Below the pieces are notes generated by a model, which was given only the letters and a program-made list of their open reading frames with translations, ran no database searches and was not told the origin of the DNA. A DNA stretch of 33,327 bases from Candidatus Zambryskiibacteriota bacterium. GTDB taxonomy: Bacteria; Patescibacteriota; Minisyncoccia; Phycocordibacterales; WO2-35-19. Made by a program: the position numbers and the translations under genes. The stretch lies in contig QILQ01000006.1 in NCBI GenBank assembly GCA_003233455.1, positions 1 to 33,327 of the forward strand, read 5' to 3'. Positions within the stretch are counted from its first letter, which is position 1. Each line of letters starts with the position of its first letter. Below, piece by piece: positions 24,282 to 33,117 of the stretch.

Positions 24282-24707
24282 ATGAAAAACTTATACCAAG
24301 CTAGTAATACTTCTTTAAATTCTCTACTTAAAAATAATCTGTTAATTCCCAGAAATTTTAGAAAATTACCTTTTGAAAAAATTAAAAATGATATCTTAGG
24401 TAAAAGATATGAACTTTCTATTGTTTTTATAGGTGAAAAACGTTCAAAAAATTTGAATACAACTTACGGAAAGAAAAATAAAGCGACAGATGTTCTTTCA
24501 TTTCCTTTTTCTTCTCTTGTTGGAGAAATTTTCATCAATCCTCAAATAGCTAAAATAAAATCAATCAAATTTTGTCTTCCTTATGAAAATTATTTATTTT
24601 TTTTAGTTATCCACGCCATCCTTCATTTGAAAGGTATGCGACATGGTGCTAATATGGAAAGATATGAGCTCAAATATTACAGCAGGTATAGATGTGGGAA
24701 CTTATGA
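24282..24707 (+). CDS. ybeY: Endoribonuclease YbeY
   Basis: KNKATDVLSFPF...GEIFINP...VIHAILHLKGMRH (three metal-ligand His of HxxxHxxxxxH conserved). Confidence 0.88.
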   Translation: MKNLYQASNTSLNSLLKNNLLIPRNFRKLPFEKIKNDILGKRYELSIVFIGEKRSKNLNTTYGKKNKATDVLSFPFSSLVGEIFINPQIAKIKSIKFCLPYENYLFFLVIHAILHLKGMRHGANMERYELKYYSRYRCGNL

Positions 24708-25836
24708 AGTAAGAGTTGTTATTGCGGAGCATGGTGATAAAAATAATTTGACCGCTATTTTAGGTACCGGCAGAGCTGAATCAAAAGGTCTCAGACATGG
24801 ATACATAATAAATATGGCTGATGTTACTAAGAGCGTTAATTTAGCTAAAAGACAAGCGGAAAAAGCTTCTGGCATTAAAATAAGAAAAGCTTTTATTTCT
24901 ATAGGAGGAATTGGTCTCTCTAGTGTAAAATCGCAAGGATCCACTATTGTAACGAAAGCTGACCAAGAAATAACAGGAGCGGATGTGGAACAAGCCATTT
25001 CGGCTGCTGAAGAAGCTATCCCCAATTCTTTAATACAAAATAGAAAAATAATTTATTCTATTCCAACTTTGTGGAAAATAGACGGTAAACCGGTTTTGGG
25101 CAGAGTTCTTGGTATGAAAGGTGTCAAACTTGAAACTAAAACTCTTTTTATCAGTTGTATTGAACCTCATTTGGATGATTTGGTTGAAGCGGTAGAAGAG
25201 ACCGGAGTGGAAGTAGTAGATGTGGTCGCTTCTCCCATTGCCGCCAGTTTTGTCACTCTTTCAAAAAGTCAAAAAATTGCCGGTTGTGTTCTTGCTAACA
25301 TAGGAGCGGAAACAGTTTCTATTGTTGTTTTTGAAAATAATATTCCGATATCTTTAGAAGTATTTCCCATTGGAGGATCAGATATAACAAATGATATTGC
25401 TCTGGGACTCAAAATATCTATGGAGGAAGCTGAATCTATTAAACTCGGAGGAATTACAGCTACCAGTTATTCCAGAAAAAAGCTGGAAGAAATAATCTCT
25501 GCTCGGTTGGGAGATATTTTTGAATTGATAGAAGTTCATCTTAAAAAAATTGGCAAGTCCGGTATCTTGCCGGCCGGTATTATAATGACGGGAGGTTCTT
25601 CTTCTCTCGGATTGATTGAAGATTTGGCCAGAAGTTATCTTCGTTTGCCTTCTCGGATAGCTTCTCTTCATATAGGTAGCGATAAATTTCAAATAAAAGA
25701 TTCTTCTTGGTCTGTAGCTTATGGACTTTGTATTATAAGCAGTATCCCAGACGAAGAAGAAAGACTCGGTCTCAAAAGATATAGCAAAAATGTATTCAAA
25801 ACAATATGGCAAACATTAAAGAAATTTTTACCATAA
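24664..25836 (+). CDS. ftsA: Cell division protein FtsA
   Basis: ITAGIDVGTYEVRVVIAE...AFISIGGIGL...PIGGSDITNDIALGLKISMEEAESIKL...GIIMTGGSSSLGLIEDLA. Confidence 0.93.
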   Translation: MSSNITAGIDVGTYEVRVVIAEHGDKNNLTAILGTGRAESKGLRHGYIINMADVTKSVNLAKRQAEKASGIKIRKAFISIGGIGLSSVKSQGSTIVTKADQEITGADVEQAISAAEEAIPNSLIQNRKIIYSIPTLWKIDGKPVLGRVLGMKGVKLETKTLFISCIEPHLDDLVEAVEETGVEVVDVVASPIAASFVTLSKSQKIAGCVLANIGAETVSIVVFENNIPISLEVFPIGGSDITNDIALGLKISMEEAESIKLGGITATSYSRKKLEEIISARLGDIFELIEVHLKKIGKSGILPAGIIMTGGSSSLGLIEDLARSYLRLPSRIASLHIGSDKFQIKDSSWSVAYGLCIISSIPDEEERLGLKRYSKNVFKTIWQTLKKFLP

Positions 25837-25839
25837 TTT

Positions 25840-25864
25840 AGTGTCAAGGGTTCCCCTTGACACT
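25840..25864. repeat. Palindrome B (AGTGTCAAGGGTTCCCCTTGACACT) acting as probable ftsA terminator
   Basis: Stem AGTGTCAAGG/CCTTGACACT followed by TTTTT; same 27-mer at 31500-31526. Confidence 0.88.
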
Positions 25865-25982
25865 TTTTGATATTTTTTAATAACACATTTTATAATTTAT
25901 ACAACCTTTGTGTTTTTAACACTTCTTGGTATAATAGCATCGTTATCTCTTATTTTTAAATATTTAATTTGTAATTAGTAAT

Positions 25983-27170
25983 ATGCCTCAAATAAAACCA
26001 GAAGTAGAAGTGTTTGCCAGAATAAAAGTTATCGGAGTTGGTGGTTCTGGCAAAAACGCGGTTAATCATATGATTGACTCCAAAGTGAAAGGAGTTGAGT
26101 TTATCGCGATAAATACAGATGCTCAAGATTTACACCATTCGGAAGCTAAAAAAAAGATACACATAGGAAAAAATTTGACTAAAGGATTGGGCACCGGTAT
26201 GAATCCGGAACTGGGCAAACGAGCGGTGGAAGAAACCAAGGAAGAAATTCAAGAAGCTATCAAAGGAGCCGATATGGTTTTTATTGCTTGCGGACTTGGT
26301 GGAGGCACAGGAACCGGAGCCGCTCCGGTTATTGCTCGCACCTCTAAAGAATTGGATACTTTAACAGTGGCAGTGGTAACTAAACCTTTTTCTTTTGAAG
26401 GTCAACAAAAAATGCGTTTGGCGGAATCCGGATTGGAGGAACTTCGCCAATCGGTTGACGCTTTGATAGTAATTCCCAATGATAGATTACTGGCTACTAT
26501 TGATAAAGAAACTTCGGCTAAAAATGCTTTTGCCATATGTGATGATATTTTAAAAGAAGCAGTTGAAGGTATATCCGATCTTATTACTATGCCAGGTATT
26601 ATAAATATTGATTTCGCCGACGTTCGAGCCATTATGGAAGAAGCTGGGGGCGCTTTAATGGGTATAGGTAGAGCTTCCGGAGAAAAAAGAGCCGAGGAAG
26701 CGGCTAAGTTGGCTATAAATTCCCCTCTTTTGGAAGTTTCAATAAATGGTGCTAAAGGTGTTTTGTTTTCCATTGCCGGAGGTGATGATTTAACGATGTT
26801 TGAAATAAACGATGCCGCCAAATTTATTACCGAATCAGTAGACCCAAACGCTAAAATAATATTTGGAACAGTTCACGATGAAAAACTTAAAAAAGGCGAA
26901 GTAAAAATTACTGTTATCGCTTCCGGCTTTCCTGAAAATTATATGAAAGGTAATAATTTATTTGGAAATAAAGAAATGGAAATGGAAGAGGAAGAAGGTA
27001 AGGGTAAAATATTTAATTCTGTATTTGGCAGAGAAAAAGAGGAGGATAAAAATAAAAAAGATAAAAAAGAAGAGAATTTAAAAAAAGAAAAAAAACAAAA
27101 TATAATAGATGATGAAGATGATGAATGGGGTGCTGTGCCGGCATTTTTAAGAAGATCTAAATTAAAATAA
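25983..27170 (+). CDS. ftsZ: Cell division protein FtsZ
   Basis: [18 protein letters not shown]...[15 protein letters not shown] tubulin signature. Confidence 0.98.
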
Positions 27171-27211
27171 ATTTTCCGGCAGAGCAGATTTGATGCTTGA
27201 TTTTTATTTAA

Positions 27212-27290
27212 CCTCACCCCTACCCCTCTCCTTAGTAAGGAGAGGGACCGAGAACATCTATAATTATACTAAAATCTAGATAGGGTGAGG
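27212..27290. repeat. Palindromic element A, distal copy
   Basis: CCTCACCCCTACCCCTCTCCTTAGTAAGGAGAGGG...TAGGGTGAGG followed by TTTTTT; between ftsZ and trxB. Confidence 0.88.
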
Positions 27291-27350
27291 TTTTTTGTAA
27301 ATTTTTGTTATAATGTTACAATTATTTATTATTAATAATTTATTTTATTT

Positions 27351-28319
27351 ATGTATGAACTAATAATCATTGGCGGTGGACCAGCGGGCGTAGCAGGTGC
27401 GGTTTATGCGGCGAGAAAACAAATTAAAACAGCTCTTGTTGTAGAAGATTTTGGCGGTCAGAGTGTAGAATCAAACGAAATCCAAAATTGGGTTGGAACT
27501 ATTGCTATCTCTGGTATTGACTTGGCTAAAAAATTTAAAGAACATCTTAAATTTTATGCTGGCGATAATATTTTTATAAAAGAAGGAGAAAAAGTTAATA
27601 AAATTGAATCTATATCTCCAACCGAAAATAATAATCAAAATAATAATTTCTTAGTAGTTACCAATAAAGATACTTATAAAACAAAAATAATTTTAATAGC
27701 TACCGGCAGTTCGCGTAGAAAACTTGATATTCCGGGCGCCAAAGAATTAGAAGGTAAAGGTATCACTTATTGTGCTTCTTGCGATGGACCGTTTTTTGCC
27801 AATAAAGAGGTGGTGGTTGTAGGTGGTGGCAATGCCGGTTTTGAATCTGCGGCTCAACTACTCGCCTATTGTAAAAGTGTTACTCTTATTTCCAGAGGAG
27901 AATTTAGAGCTGATCCGATTACAATAGAAAAAGTATTAGCAAATCCTAAAATGACAGCTCTAACAAACGCTTCACCCATTGAAATAAAAGGTGGTTCAAT
28001 TGATGGTCAAACGGGTAATTTTGTAAAATCTTTGGTTTATCATCGATCGGCTCCTTTTGCCGATGATGTTGAAATTAAAGTGGATGGCGTATTTGTAGAG
28101 ATTGGTCATACTCCGGCAACTTCTTTTGTAGAAAATTTGGTGGAGATGGATGAATTCAAACATATAAAAATTAACTGTAAAACTCAACAAACCAATGTAA
28201 AAGGAATTTGGGCAGCCGGAGATTGCACTGATGCTCTTTATCACCAAAATAACATCGCCGCCGGCGACGCCGTTAAAGCAGTTGAAGATATTTATTTAGA
28301 ATTGCAAAAAATCAAATAA
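27351..28319 (+). CDS. trxB: Thioredoxin reductase-like FAD/NAD(P) oxidoreductase
   Basis: IIIGGGPAGVAGAVYAARKQ, YCASCDGPFF, VVVVGGGNAGFESA, IWAAGDCTD. Confidence 0.93.
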   Translation: MYELIIIGGGPAGVAGAVYAARKQIKTALVVEDFGGQSVESNEIQNWVGTIAISGIDLAKKFKEHLKFYAGDNIFIKEGEKVNKIESISPTENNNQNNNFLVVTNKDTYKTKIILIATGSSRRKLDIPGAKELEGKGITYCASCDGPFFANKEVVVVGGGNAGFESAAQLLAYCKSVTLISRGEFRADPITIEKVLANPKMTALTNASPIEIKGGSIDGQTGNFVKSLVYHRSAPFADDVEIKVDGVFVEIGHTPATSFVENLVEMDEFKHIKINCKTQQTNVKGIWAAGDCTDALYHQNNIAAGDAVKAVEDIYLELQKIK

Positions 28320-28398: not shown

Positions 28399-28926
28399 TT
28401 ATTTTAATGTAGCAGAAGGTAATCCAAACATTTGAACTACAAAAATAGCCTGTCTACCTTTATAGATACCGGTAGAAGTGGCAATACCTATTTCAGTATA
28501 GTTTGGATTTATAATATTTAAAAAATGACTGCGAGAATTCATCCATGCTCTTTCCACATCTTCACTGTTTTCAAAATTGACTGCTAAATTTTCACCAGCA
28601 TAAATATATTTATAACCCGCTTTTCGAAACCAATACCAAGGAGTTTTGCCATCCGGAGTATTATGAGCAAAATAACTTTTAGTCGCCATATCATTAGCCT
28701 TCATTTGAGCTGCTTTTACCAGAAGCGGATTTACTTTAAGTTCTTGACGATTAGCGACCACTCTATTTTTATTTGTCAGATTAACTAATACGCTGGCATA
28801 AATAGCTGAAAGTGAATCTAAAACTGTTGTTCTAACAGAAGGACTTATCCCCACAAAAATAACTATAACAACCAAAAAAACAACAGCTATTTTTAATTTC
28901 ATAGTTTCTCTATATTTTTTTCTCAC
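28399..28926 (-). CDS. Secreted CAP/SCP-domain protein
   Basis: N-terminal TM; NPLLVKAAQMKANDMATKSYFAHNTPDGKTPWYWFRKAGYKYIYAGENLAVNF; GTG start. Confidence 0.9.
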   Translation of the reverse strand: MRKKYRETMKLKIAVVFLVVIVIFVGISPSVRTTVLDSLSAIYASVLVNLTNKNRVVANRQELKVNPLLVKAAQMKANDMATKSYFAHNTPDGKTPWYWFRKAGYKYIYAGENLAVNFENSEDVERAWMNSRSHFLNIINPNYTEIGIATSTGIYKGRQAIFVVQMFGLPSATLK

Positions 28927-28945
28927 AAAATTACTATAACATATT

Positions 28946-31468
28946 TTAGAAAAATAATAGATTGGTCGGAATGTATTTTTTCTTTCGCATTATAAGAATA
29001 AAAGAAAGTCCAAGAAGAGCGCTTTGAGAAAAACTTAAGGTGTTAGTTTTATCAACTTTATTATTCGCATAACAAAAACCTGTCAATAATTTTTTGTATG
29101 GTTTTGAATGATTGATAATGGAAATATTTTTAGTGGATAATCCTAAAACCTCTCCCACTACAATCCTTTTTTGTAACTTCTTTTTTTGTTTTTGAACTTG
29201 AATTTGAATTACCGGTTTTTTAGCTATTATAATTTTATCCGATGCCATATTTGAATCAGCTATTGAAGCTGAATTTGGGTCAAAAGAATAATCTCCACTT
29301 AAAGCTTCCACCCAAGCGAAATTTGTATAAGTTCCCGGAGTAGTGCTAGCAGTAAATTCATTGGTGTAAGTAACTGTAATTTCTTCATCCGGTAAAATTT
29401 TTCCAAGTTTCCAAGTTTGTTCATTTATAACTTTTCCATCTTCATTTTTAAGTTGATCTATAAGCAAACCTTCATAAGCCGCCCCGCCGTTATTTTTGAC
29501 TACTATTTTGTAATCAGCCGAACCTTCAAATGGAACCATTTCTATTCCATTAATGATAATCGCACTTGGGATACTGTGAGTTTTTGTTACTTTCAAATTG
29601 GCATAAGAAGTAGTCCTTGAAGTATAAGGCAATATAATAGTCGGTTTTGTATAAACAGAAAGAGTTATTGTATCGGTATTATCTTTTATATTTGCGTCAG
29701 TTTCCTTAAGAGAAACAGATGTTTTATTTGTAATATTGCTTCTTCCCGGCTGATGATTACCTGTAATAGTTCCATAATATGAAATCTTTGTTGATTCTCC
29801 GGCGACAAGCGGACCGAGAGACCATTCATTTTTACCGGCAATATTTAAAAACGGTTCTTGTGGTTTTGTTATAACTTTAATCCCGCTGGCAGTTGCGTCA
29901 CCATTATTTTTTATAGTTGTCGTAAATTTAACAGATGAACCGGGTTTCAAAGAACCGGCAGATTCAGCGACTGTGCCTATCCAAAGATCTGGTTGGCCAA
30001 AAGAAACATTGCCTTGCCAGTTTCCAAGAACATTTACTAAAGCAGCCGTCCAATTACTGCTTACTATATTTGTATTGATTATATTAATTTGATTAGATCC
30101 GGCGTAAGCATTGCCTGTTTTGATGGAATTATTTTCCCCATCAGCATTATTATTGCCAGTAGTAGCATTGACTTTTATATTATTTGAAACTTTAGCATCA
30201 TTATTATTTTTAACTGAAATATTATTTTCTTCCGAAGTTGATTTTTTATTTTCAAAAGGATTACCGCCATCTTTATTATAAAGCACGACACCTTTAGAAG
30301 TTTTTTTCCAGACTATATTTTTTGGCAAATTAAATATATCGCCATTCCAATCGCCAAAAACTTTAATCAATAAATAAAATGAAGATTTACCATAAATATT
30401 GGTATTGATTTTATTATAAACATTTGAAGAAGCCAAACTATTCCCCGAATTTATAGAAGCATTTTTTCCAGAAGCCTTATTTCCTCCGCTATCAGCCGAA
30501 GTATCAACCGAATTTGAAACATTAGCTTTATTATTATTTGATACTTTAGTATCTCCACCACAAGTGACGCAATTAGAAGCGAAATCAGAAAGAAAGTGGC
30601 TGAAAAAATCGCCATTTGGGAAAATTAAATCTCCGGACCAATCGCCAAAATTATTAAAAACCAAAAGCGTATAGTTTGATTTTACAATATTAGTATTAGC
30701 GATATTTATCACATTAGCTCCAGCGTAAGCGTTTCCGGTAGTTATGCTAGCCTCGGTGCTAGAGGCGTTATTGTTTCCGGTTTTTGCTGAAACCGTTATG
30801 TCGTTTGTTACGGTAGCCATATTTTGATTTTTTATTGAAATATCTCCTAGACAATTATCGCAAGTGCTACTGCTTTGTTCGCTAAAATCATTTCTTAAAT
30901 CCAAAGAAGAATCTCCTAAAGAACCACTGCCGACTACAATATCGCCTTTAGAATTAACCACATTTGTATTTACCAAATTAACCGTATCCGCACTGGCTAC
31001 CGCATCACCGGTAACTATCGTAGTAGTGGCCTGTTTTCCCTCGGCATTGTTGCTTCCGGTCTCTGCAGTGGTGGTGGCCGTGTTTTGTATTTCCGCTTTA
31101 TTTTTATTTTGAATATCTACCTTAGCATCATCATTTCCCTCTTCTGTATTTTGAATTTTCTCAGTTTGTTTTGTATCACTTTCTCCTGTTTTGGACGCTT
31201 CAACTGTCACTTTATTGGTATTGACTTCATTTTGAATATTGGTTTGAGAAACCGCCTCTCCGGTTTCAACAGTTTGATTTGAAGCGGGAGCCGATGTTTC
31301 CGAAGTAGAAGAAACCGCGGGAGTATTTTCAGTTGAAGAAACTTCCCCTTCGGCATAGGCGGTAACACTTGGTATAAAAACCCAATTTAAAACACCAACT
31401 ATTAAAAACACCGAAAAAACGATTTTGATTTTCTTACATCTATTAAAATTTAAAGAATGAAAATACAT
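28946..31468 (-). CDS. Large secreted surface protein: four Asn-rich repeats, CARDB/DUF11-like domains, C-terminal TM
   Basis: Signal sequence; repeats such as ISIKNQNMATVTNDITVSAKTGNNNASSTEASITTGNAYAGANVINIANTNIV; CARDB-like PDLWIGTVAESAGSLKPGSSVKFTTTIKNNGDATASGIKV; terminal ALLGLSFILIMRKKK. Confidence 0.85.
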   Translation of the reverse strand: MYFHSLNFNRCKKIKIVFSVFLIVGVLNWVFIPSVTAYAEGEVSSTENTPAVSSTSETSAPASNQTVETGEAVSQTNIQNEVNTNKVTVEASKTGESDTKQTEKIQNTEEGNDDAKVDIQNKNKAEIQNTATTTAETGSNNAEGKQATTTIVTGDAVASADTVNLVNTNVVNSKGDIVVGSGSLGDSSLDLRNDFSEQSSSTCDNCLGDISIKNQNMATVTNDITVSAKTGNNNASSTEASITTGNAYAGANVINIANTNIVKSNYTLLVFNNFGDWSGDLIFPNGDFFSHFLSDFASNCVTCGGDTKVSNNNKANVSNSVDTSADSGGNKASGKNASINSGNSLASSNVYNKINTNIYGKSSFYLLIKVFGDWNGDIFNLPKNIVWKKTSKGVVLYNKDGGNPFENKKSTSEENNISVKNNNDAKVSNNIKVNATTGNNNADGENNSIKTGNAYAGSNQINIINTNIVSSNWTAALVNVLGNWQGNVSFGQPDLWIGTVAESAGSLKPGSSVKFTTTIKNNGDATASGIKVITKPQEPFLNIAGKNEWSLGPLVAGESTKISYYGTITGNHQPGRSNITNKTSVSLKETDANIKDNTDTITLSVYTKPTIILPYTSRTTSYANLKVTKTHSIPSAIIINGIEMVPFEGSADYKIVVKNNGGAAYEGLLIDQLKNEDGKVINEQTWKLGKILPDEEITVTYTNEFTASTTPGTYTNFAWVEALSGDYSFDPNSASIADSNMASDKIIIAKKPVIQIQVQKQKKKLQKRIVVGEVLGLSTKNISIINHSKPYKKLLTGFCYANNKVDKTNTLSFSQSALLGLSFILIMRKKKYIPTNLLFF

Positions 31469-31877
31469 ATTTTATAATTTCTTTTACTGTTTCTTTAAAA
31501 GTGTCAAGGGTTCCCCTTGACACTTTGTTTGTTGGAAATAAAGGGTTTTTAGCGACATTATTTATACTTATTTTTACTTTTGTCTCTACTTTACTCTCAT
31601 CAAATTTATCCCCATTAAACTCTTTTTTGACTTTATAATTGAATTTTTCTTCACCTTGAATTTCTTTTTGGAAATCTTCAATTACTTTTCCATTTACCTC
31701 TGTATGAATATTAACGCTTGACTTGCTTGTTCCTTCTATCACTTTCCCCTTTTCAGCAGTATTTCCGCCGGTAGAAGCAGAAGTAGAGATATTGTTTTTA
31801 ATCTCTACATTATGAGCAGAAACAAATATCGGTGCTATAAAAATCAAAATTAAAACTATTAAAAATTTTTCGCTCAT
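31443..31877 (-). CDS. Small secreted protein with one related Asn-rich repeat
   Basis: Signal peptide; HNVEIKNNISTSASTGGNTAEKGK; SD-like AGGGAG upstream; overlaps the start of the 840-aa gene. Confidence 0.7.
   Translation of the reverse strand: MSEKFLIVLILIFIAPIFVSAHNVEIKNNISTSASTGGNTAEKGKVIEGTSKSSVNIHTEVNGKVIEDFQKEIQGEEKFNYKVKKEFNGDKFDESKVETKVKISINNVAKNPLFPTNKVSRGTLDTFKETVKEIIKYVFSFFKF
31500..31524. repeat. Palindrome B, copy inside a CDS
   Basis: Identical 27-mer to the 25840 copy; read in frame as VSRGTLDT in the 144-aa protein. Confidence 0.92.
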
Positions 31878-31890
31878 AATTTTATCTCCC

Positions 31891-31928
31891 TCAGGCGAAT
31901 TATTTTTTCTAAAAAATAATTCGCCTGA
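31891..31928. promoter_or_regulatory. 18-bp perfect hairpin in the intercistronic leader
   Basis: TCAGGCGAATTATTTTTT-CT-AAAAAATAATTCGCCTGA, adjoining AGGGAG and the 31877 start. Confidence 0.8.
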
Positions 31929-31961
31929 AGTAGCCAGTTAAACTGACTAACTTCAAGACAA

Positions 31962-32552
31962 CTATCGACGAACGCGAGTCAAATTGCTATTGACTACATT
32001 AACAACCGCTGTATGCGAAGCAGCACTGCCGGAATTGATTTCTCCAGCATAACCACCTTTAGAGTCGTTATTGTTGTTGTTATTGTGATTACCATTATGG
32101 TACCACCAACCACCTCCAACTTTGTTGTTAGCATTACCACCATTAGTACCGTTATTGCCGGTATTAGCTTCTGTTGTAACCTTATTTACTACATAAGCTC
32201 TATTGTGATTTCTAACAGCAACATTTCTACCACAACCACAATCATTAGCATTAACCGCTGTTAAATTTGAATTTACAGCATTGCCAACGAGTGTTCCAGC
32301 TGTAGCATTGCCAGTCACAACTAATCCACCGTCACTTCCAACAGCATCGTTATTATTGTTATGAGAGCCTCTTATTCTATTTGAAGCCCAACCTCCATTG
32401 GAAGTATTAGCACCGGTATTAGCGTATGTATCAACATTGTTGACAACAGTAGCGTGGTTATTATTAACAACATGAGGAGAATTACTAGCAAAAGCTGGTG
32501 TAACTAAGACGACAAAAGCCGCCACTGCCACCATTGCTATAACTTTTTTCAT
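31962..32552 (-). CDS. Secreted Asn/Gly-rich protein with two repeats
   Basis: Signal peptide MKKVIAMVAVAAFVVLVTPAFA; NNNHATVVNNVDTYANTGANTSNGG and RNHNRAYVVNKVTTEANTGNNGTNGG, each ending VVNVVNSNLT/GNAVNSNLT. Confidence 0.85.
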   Translation of the reverse strand: MKKVIAMVAVAAFVVLVTPAFASNSPHVVNNNHATVVNNVDTYANTGANTSNGGWASNRIRGSHNNNNDAVGSDGGLVVTGNATAGTLVGNAVNSNLTAVNANDCGCGRNVAVRNHNRAYVVNKVTTEANTGNNGTNGGNANNKVGGGWWYHNGNHNNNNNNDSKGGYAGEINSGSAASHTAVVNVVNSNLTRVRR

Positions 32553-32677
32553 ATTTTTTTACCCGCTTAGATTTTTGTTAACAAAAATTTGGGCAGGTTA
32601 ATTAATTTTTAATAATTTTTTTCTCTTCCCTACCAGAGTATGCATACAAAGCGCTATCCTGGTAGAGAAGTTATCGA

Positions 32678-32731
32678 CCAAACAAAAAAGTCGCTTCAAG
32701 CGAAAATATTCGCTAAGCGGCTTTTTGGTTT
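32678..32731. terminator. Long imperfect inverted repeat with flanking A/T tracts, probable bidirectional terminator
   Basis: CCAAACAAAAAAGTCGCTTCAAGCGAAAATATTCGCTAAGCGGCTTTTTGGTTTG. Confidence 0.65.
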
Positions 32732-32909
32732 GATAAATTCCTATTTTTTGCGTTAAAAATTGAGGAAACATTGCTCTCTTTATTTTAATCCTTTTTTTCC
32801 CCAAAAAAGGCTGATTCAATAATACTCTTATATTTTAAAGAAATATTTGAGGCTGTCAATGTAAACATGTGAATTGCTTTATTTGATTTTATTTTGATAT
32901 AATTATGCT

Positions 32910-33017
32910 ATTAAATATCTTTCATTTGAATTCCAGTAAAAAGCCCAGAATGGACGCCAAATCGGGGAAACAATCCCGCAAGCGAGATTGAAGATCTGGC
33001 GTCCATTCTGGGCTTTT
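32910..33017 (+). ncRNA. Candidate structured transcript with 21-bp perfect stem (32939-32959/32997-33017)
   Basis: TGATATAAT promoter at 32896-32903; stem AAAAGCCCAGAATGGACGCCA/TGGCGTCCATTCTGGGCTTTT; 37-nt loop with its own hairpins. Confidence 0.45.
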
Positions 33018-33117
33018 GATATTCGCATTCTAATGATAATCACTTAAATGTCAACCCTAAATGGTAATATCTAAACACTTCTGGCACTTTTGATAGAGTT
33101 GGTTAATGAGTATCAAA

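Follow-up and report, generated by a model that had tools for sequence, protein, structure and literature searches.

A conserved cassette of secreted Asn-rich repeat proteins in CPR bacteria, a surface system that may form an adhesive fibre

We characterized three consecutive genes on the minus strand of the window (the whole stretch of DNA that was analysed, 33,327 nt, which is the complete contig C16 of a 736-kb genome with completeness of 96.6%) as a cassette that is a real, conserved surface system of CPR bacteria, present in many Parcubacteria and in some Microgenomates. The genes, called here small, mid and large, encode proteins of 196, 144 and 840 aa; we found them at exactly the positions given in an initial annotation of the window (Table 1). 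As to the function, we favour, with a probability of about 0.5, an anchored adhesive fibre, in which the large protein would be the base and the small protein an abundant subunit stacking through its repeats. None of the three outcomes named in the initial annotation as contrary to its proposal (units belonging to a well-characterized family, no conserved neighbourhood in relatives, disorder with no repeat fold) was observed.

Table 1. Features of the cassette and of the adjacent gene (positions in the window)
Feature	Coordinates	Strand	Basis or remark
CAP/YkwD-type secreted protein gene	28399..28926	minus	19 bases downstream of large gene
Large gene, 840 aa: signal, half unit, four units, two DUF11-like domains, C-terminal anchor	28946..31468	minus	
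Large, C-terminal helix before basic tail, residues 813-831	28976..29032	minus	likely but marginal membrane anchor
Large, second Ig-like/DUF11-like domain, about residues 625-748	29225..29596	minus	Pfam + AF2
Large, DUF11 domain, residues 504-603	29660..29959	minus	Pfam PF01345, E 2.6e-11, two stretches
Large, unit 4, residues 417-490	29999..30220	minus	alignment + AF2
Large, unit 3, residues 307-370	30359..30550	minus	alignment + AF2
Large, unit 2, residues 210-274	30647..30841	minus	alignment + AF2
Large, unit 1, residues 117-182	30923..31120	minus	alignment + AF2
Large, N-terminal half unit, residues 65-88	31205..31276	minus	AF2 strands 65-68, 72-82, 85-87; ETGDA motif
Mid/large gene overlap, 26 nt	31443..31468	minus	equal length in many relatives
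Mid gene, 144 aa secreted, one degenerate unit, conserved C-terminal YVFSFF stretch	31443..31877	minus	
Strong stem-loop between small and mid genes	31892..31927	minus	similarly strong folding in 19 of 22 gaps
Small gene, 196 aa secreted, two repeat units	31962..32552	minus	conserved in relatives
Small, unit 2, ends N-x-N-x-T-R-x-R-R (conserved)	31968..32231	minus	alignment + AF2
Small, Cys-Gly-Cys between units	32232..32240	minus	alignment
Small, unit 1, about residues 27-99	32256..32474	minus	low-confidence AF2 + alignment

A repeat family common to the three proteins

All three proteins begin with what appears to be a Sec-type signal ending with A-x-A/V-x-A (as read from the sequence and its hydrophobic peaks), in agreement with the signal-like N-termini noticed earlier. 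The repeat unit, about 85-110 residues long, consists of a first part, x-V-x-N-x-N-x-A-x-V-x-N-x-V-x-x-x-A-x-T-G-x-N-x-A-x-G, a loop (short in the large protein, rich in Gly and very variable in the small ones), and a second part, I-x-T-G-N-A-x-A-x-x-x-V-x-N-x-x-N-T-N-I.

That the units make one repeat family, as had been proposed, was supported by shuffle controls and profile-profile alignment, which exclude an effect of composition. With a profile whose only members were small proteins from the order's other families, the window's genus not being included, the large protein scored 71.0 bits against the best value of -5.9 among 300 shuffles, and the small protein scored 119.4 bits against the best value of 1.4, again among 300 shuffles. 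Profile-profile alignment of the small and large families gave a probability of 99.3 (E 4e-20). The mid protein scored 12.4 bits in the sequence search, where the shuffled maximum was 13.1; its unit was detected in profile-profile alignment with a probability of 94.5 (E 8e-8), the alignment being formed partly by the signal peptide. Judged in this way, kinship of the mid protein to the repeat is clear only at the profile-profile level; it is there that the earlier description of the protein as having one degenerate unit finds support.

No family in Pfam, NCBIfam or PDB sequences covers the repeat, and Pfam recognizes only DUF11, in the large protein; the family is thus undescribed in these collections, as was suspected. 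The PDB sequence matches obtained with the small or the large profile were low-complexity chance matches only. The cassette was also not described in the literature that we searched, which left out most subscription journals and all preprints.

Structure and probable anchoring of the proteins

The AlphaFold2 model of the large protein, with 42 relatives in the input, has an overall pLDDT of 78.9, and most values within the repeat units lie at 87-97. The strand lengths recur almost exactly in units 1-4 of the model, being 20, 3, 5, 11 and 3, followed by 8-10; the confident prediction and the recurring pattern point to a repeat fold, as expected earlier, rather than to disorder. The initial annotation had counted four units in this protein; the four full units are indeed there, and an additional half unit at the N-terminus had been overlooked. 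The set of four is fixed in 11 aligned relatives. An aromatic strand comes after each unit (SNYLLL..NNFGDWxGDLxF in the case of unit 2), and a Cys pair, C203/C206, lies between units 1 and 2. Foldseek matches of the large model were dominated by Ig-fold proteins because of the DUF11 domains and carried no information on the repeats.

The CARDB/DUF11-like domains reported after the four units were identified by Pfam as DUF11, in two stretches. The reported C-terminal transmembrane segment with a basic tail was only partly upheld: the helix is present, and it is short and marginal in the protein of the window. Among 42 large proteins 37 have DUF11 and 14 end with PG_binding_1; others, that of the window included, have at this end a hydrophobic helix with a basic tail. 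Given these domains and C-termini, anchoring at the envelope is most likely for the large protein, in line with its proposed role of an anchored base.

The model of the small protein is poor (pLDDT 60.7, pTM 0.38). At this low confidence the strand order of the large units is seen twice, with strands 27-45, 83-93 and 96-101 in unit 1, and the alignment agrees with the two units assigned to this protein at the outset. Cys105 is nearly invariant among 11 aligned small proteins. In a Foldseek search the top PDB matches of the small model were two FapC amyloid structures, a protein in which each repeat makes a Greek-key cross-beta layer; the matches lack significance (E 0.03, prob 0.06, TM 0.10).

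Conservation and spread of the cassette

Of the order's 98 other genomes, 10 carry the large gene, and in all 10 of these the small, mid and large genes follow in that order on one strand. An eleventh genome, G055, has a match limited to the DUF11 region. When the small gene was searched for separately in this genome set, it was detected by sequence in nine genomes, each with the large gene as well; G058, the remaining carrier of the large gene, has a divergent small gene at its expected place. In the window's own genus the cassette is present in three of eight genomes.

A scan of 85,488 species genomes produced 53 loci, and all of those carrying a lineage name belong to CPR. A contig end truncates six of the loci L043-L088 (46 in all), and the other 40 have enough DNA upstream of the large gene; a small-family gene is located upstream in all 40, and the mid gene was detected in 32. 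The neighbourhood described in the initial annotation is therefore conserved, with all three genes in 10 of 10 genomes of the order and with the small-family gene upstream of the large one in 40 of 40 further loci. A plain small gene with no extra domain is found in nearly all loci, nine loci carry several small paralogues per operon, and in the loci from Microgenomates the arrangement varies, with two to four repeat genes in tandem.

Matches to the large profile were observed in 97 of 390 CPR genomes of the phylum sample, a figure that overstates the spread, since many of the matches cover only DUF11 or the peptidoglycan-binding tail. According to match coordinates the repeat region is covered in about 41 of the 390 genomes, the window's genome included, which is roughly 10%. 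Relatives of the cassette were searched for in viral contigs and none was found.

Gene arrangement, expression and genomic setting

The 26-base overlap of the mid and large genes recurs in nine of the loci L043-L088, with overlaps of other short lengths in more of them. The 84-nt gap between the small and mid genes of the window folds with -37.1 kcal/mol (z -10.6 against dinucleotide shuffles). Strong folding is seen in relatives too: z was below -3 in 19 of 22 gaps, with a median of -4.2; the small-mid gaps are stronger than the control gaps (n=66, median z -1.3; Mann-Whitney p 7e-7). The position of these stem-loops is kept and their sequence is not. The one in the window has no T-run after it and hence is not a classical terminator. 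It could plausibly protect the small transcript or lower the output of the mid and large genes, which would fit a subunit needed in excess of the base. Pairing of the stem-loop with the ribosome site of the mid gene (p 0.04, 14 versus 22 genes) is only suggestive of sequestration of that site.

Upstream of the small gene (32553-33054, minus strand) there are two promoter-like sites with 11 of 12 matching positions and several hairpins, among them a terminator-like inverted repeat at about 32940-33015. Use of the nearer promoter-like site would give the small gene a leader of about 275 bases. Rfam matched no known RNA at this leader or at the small-mid intergenic region.

The CAP/YkwD-type gene next to the large gene keeps its place beside the cassette in G003 and G007, and it may extend the cluster and share an operon with it. 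The cassette is adjoined by ftsA, ftsZ and a thioredoxin-reductase-like gene, trxB (24643-28319). The same flanking genes were found in four other genomes of the order (G003, G007, G017 and G019), which suggests an old insertion site.

Accessory domains and neighbouring families

Some cassette operons contain small paralogues fused to other domains. A VWA domain precedes the repeats in small-family proteins of L047, L075 and L080, Ice_binding-like and PA14 domains precede them in L045, and in G007, a member of the window's genus, the extra N-terminal domain is an unassigned one of about 200 residues. The fused paralogues retain the C-terminal repeat, and nearly all of them retain the end N-x-N-x-T-R-x-R. 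With the repeat constant and the N-terminal domains differing, the repeat looks like a joining part and the N-terminal domain like a cargo.

TasA-like genes (weak Peptidase_M73, SpaA_2) adjoin the cassette in several relatives. Near such genes in L078 (12306-13298) there is a gene for a 330-aa protein with a very acidic linker followed by one B-half and one A-half of the cassette repeat, a hint that the cassette and the TasA-like system may be physically linked. Distant variants of the cassette in eight loci (L080, L081, L086, L089-L092 and L095), Microgenomates among them, have in their vicinity a family of which a member, L086:10334-10939, was confirmed by Pfam as a sortase. Another secreted family occurs near the cassette in L074, L082, L090 and L095, and its member at L095:11368-12411 has RTX-type calcium-binding repeats.

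Proposed function and alternatives

In the mechanism that we infer, with its stacking between molecules, fibre, binding target, stoichiometry and role of the mid protein, the cassette would build an adhesive structure on the surface of the monoderm CPR cell. The large protein, exported by Sec, would have its C-terminus in the membrane (in relatives, on peptidoglycan), its Ig-like DUF11 domains would form a stalk and its four repeat units would face outward. Each unit would be one beta layer composed of a long strand (Asn-Ala-Val), a turn (Thr-Gly) bearing the variable Gly-rich loop, and a second strand; layers of successive molecules of the small protein, the main subunit, would stack, beginning at the base's exposed layers, and thus make the fibre. 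Small paralogues with VWA, ice-binding-like, PA14 or other N-terminal domains could enter the fibre as adhesive subunits. The mid protein, with its half-finished unit and hydrophobic C-terminus, may be an adaptor or a starter, made in step with the base via the overlapping genes, and the stem-loop after the small gene would keep the output of the subunit above that of the base.

In favour of this mechanism are the repeat homology, the conserved gene order, the strand pattern of the large units, the PG_binding_1, DUF11 and binding-type domains in relatives, the stem-loops and the weak FapC top matches of the small model. Several observations count against a fibre: the model of the small protein is poor, its match to FapC is non-significant, and the sequence profiles did not find FapC or curlin; also, none of the cassette genes is known to be dedicated to assembly, matches to sortase and to the M73/TasA type are lacking in the window's genome, and fused binding domains occur in only a part of the loci. 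The main rival, which we consider unlikely, is a non-polymeric display scaffold, where the units of the anchored large protein would be docking sites and one small protein, plain or with a binding domain, would be plugged into each via its repeats, as in a surface scaffoldin. The fixed number of large units would suit such a scaffold, as would the shared C-terminal repeats and differing N-terminal domains of the small paralogues and the loci with several of them per operon. However, the plain small gene present in nearly all loci and the strong stem-loops after it, suggesting a product needed in excess, argue against docking, and the two units of the small protein exceed what a plug would need. 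Even less probable is a surface coat or S-layer-like envelope, with the large and small proteins carpeting the cell for protection or spacing and adhesion being secondary. Presence of the cassette is patchy, both in the order and among the sampled CPR genomes, and if it formed the only envelope layer, one would expect it in every genome of a genus, yet most genomes of the window's genus lack the cassette; what speaks for a coat are secreted, wall-anchored, Asn/Gly-rich proteins with Ig-like domains, and, at some loci, CAP-domain or TasA-like neighbours.

The initial annotation had also suggested that the proteins are curli-like. Common to curli (CsgA/CsgB) and the cassette are secreted imperfect repeats with an alternating polar ladder and small hydrophobic residues, as well as a subunit and a repeat-bearing partner within one operon. 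Curli form a left-handed beta-solenoid of stacked beta-arches; the AF2 model of the large repeat region shows regularly repeated strands, which may or may not stack in this way. Still, curli have a Gln ladder and units of about 23 residues, whereas the cassette has Asn instead and units several times longer. The CPR lineage of the window's organism is not known to have an outer membrane; export in the cassette would be by Sec, and the large partner bears DUF11 and a wall anchor, in which it also differs from curli. Membership in curli was not supported: a search of the whole genome with the curlin model PF07012, at E up to 1, gave no match, with the E. coli control being positive, and the small protein contains no glutamine. 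The motifs X6QX10Q and NX5Q, tested as defined along with the curlin motif N-$-hydrophobic-$-hydrophobic-$-Q (PMC10192328), are absent from the small protein and have scattered single matches in the large one. With Fap (FapC/FapB), where each cross-beta layer of FapC is one imperfect repeat resting on a network of conserved Asn/Gln (PMC12392863), the cassette shares few imperfect repeats per protein, variable loops and conserved Asn; it differs by having two units in the small protein, not the three of FapC, and by lack of a sequence match, as a profile of 38 small proteins found no FapC chains in PDB sequences at E up to 10. No genes of fapABCDEF type were recognized among recurrent neighbour families in a scan that did not use Fap models. 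A CPR branch of curli or Fap that diverged beyond recognition would account for the imperfect repeats, the alternating N-x-A-x-V-x-N ladders, the variable loops and the pairing of a subunit with a repeat-bearing partner; in view of these searches we regard it as very improbable. On our best reading the cassette would work like curli or Fap, with membership in either not supported by sequence.

Other surface fibres offer partial parallels. TasA/CalY-type fibres with SipW are, like the proposed fibre, made by monoderm bacteria, and TasA-like genes lie beside the cassette in some relatives, but the module shared in the cassette is the Asn-rich repeat and not the Ig-like fold, by which TasA fibres are joined through donor-strand exchange (cited in PMC12822426); searched for at E up to 1, the TasA/camelysin family PF12389 (Peptidase_M73) was not found in the window's genome. 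Sortase-assembled pili with VWA tip adhesins resemble the cassette in having a backbone-like subunit, a wall-anchored base and a VWA accessory subunit in one operon, whereas the cassette subunits bear the repeat instead of LPXTG and pilin Ig domains, and sortase PF04203 is absent from the window's nearly complete genome.

More tentatively, and with somewhat less than even odds, the anchored fibre could represent a separate functional-amyloid-like class, seen so far only in CPR, with Asn-rich layers of small subunits, exported by Sec across a single membrane, polymerising on a wall-anchored four-layer base and with exchangeable adhesins for contact with the host. If the small protein polymerises, the cassette would add a class of fibres that is based on Asn ladders and separate from curli and Fap. 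For CPR bacteria a life in attachment to other cells is assumed, and to our knowledge few of their attachment devices have been described beyond type IV pili. The cassette can be tested with recombinant proteins, no culture of the organism being needed, and it bears on the poorly known means by which most CPR cells hold other cells.
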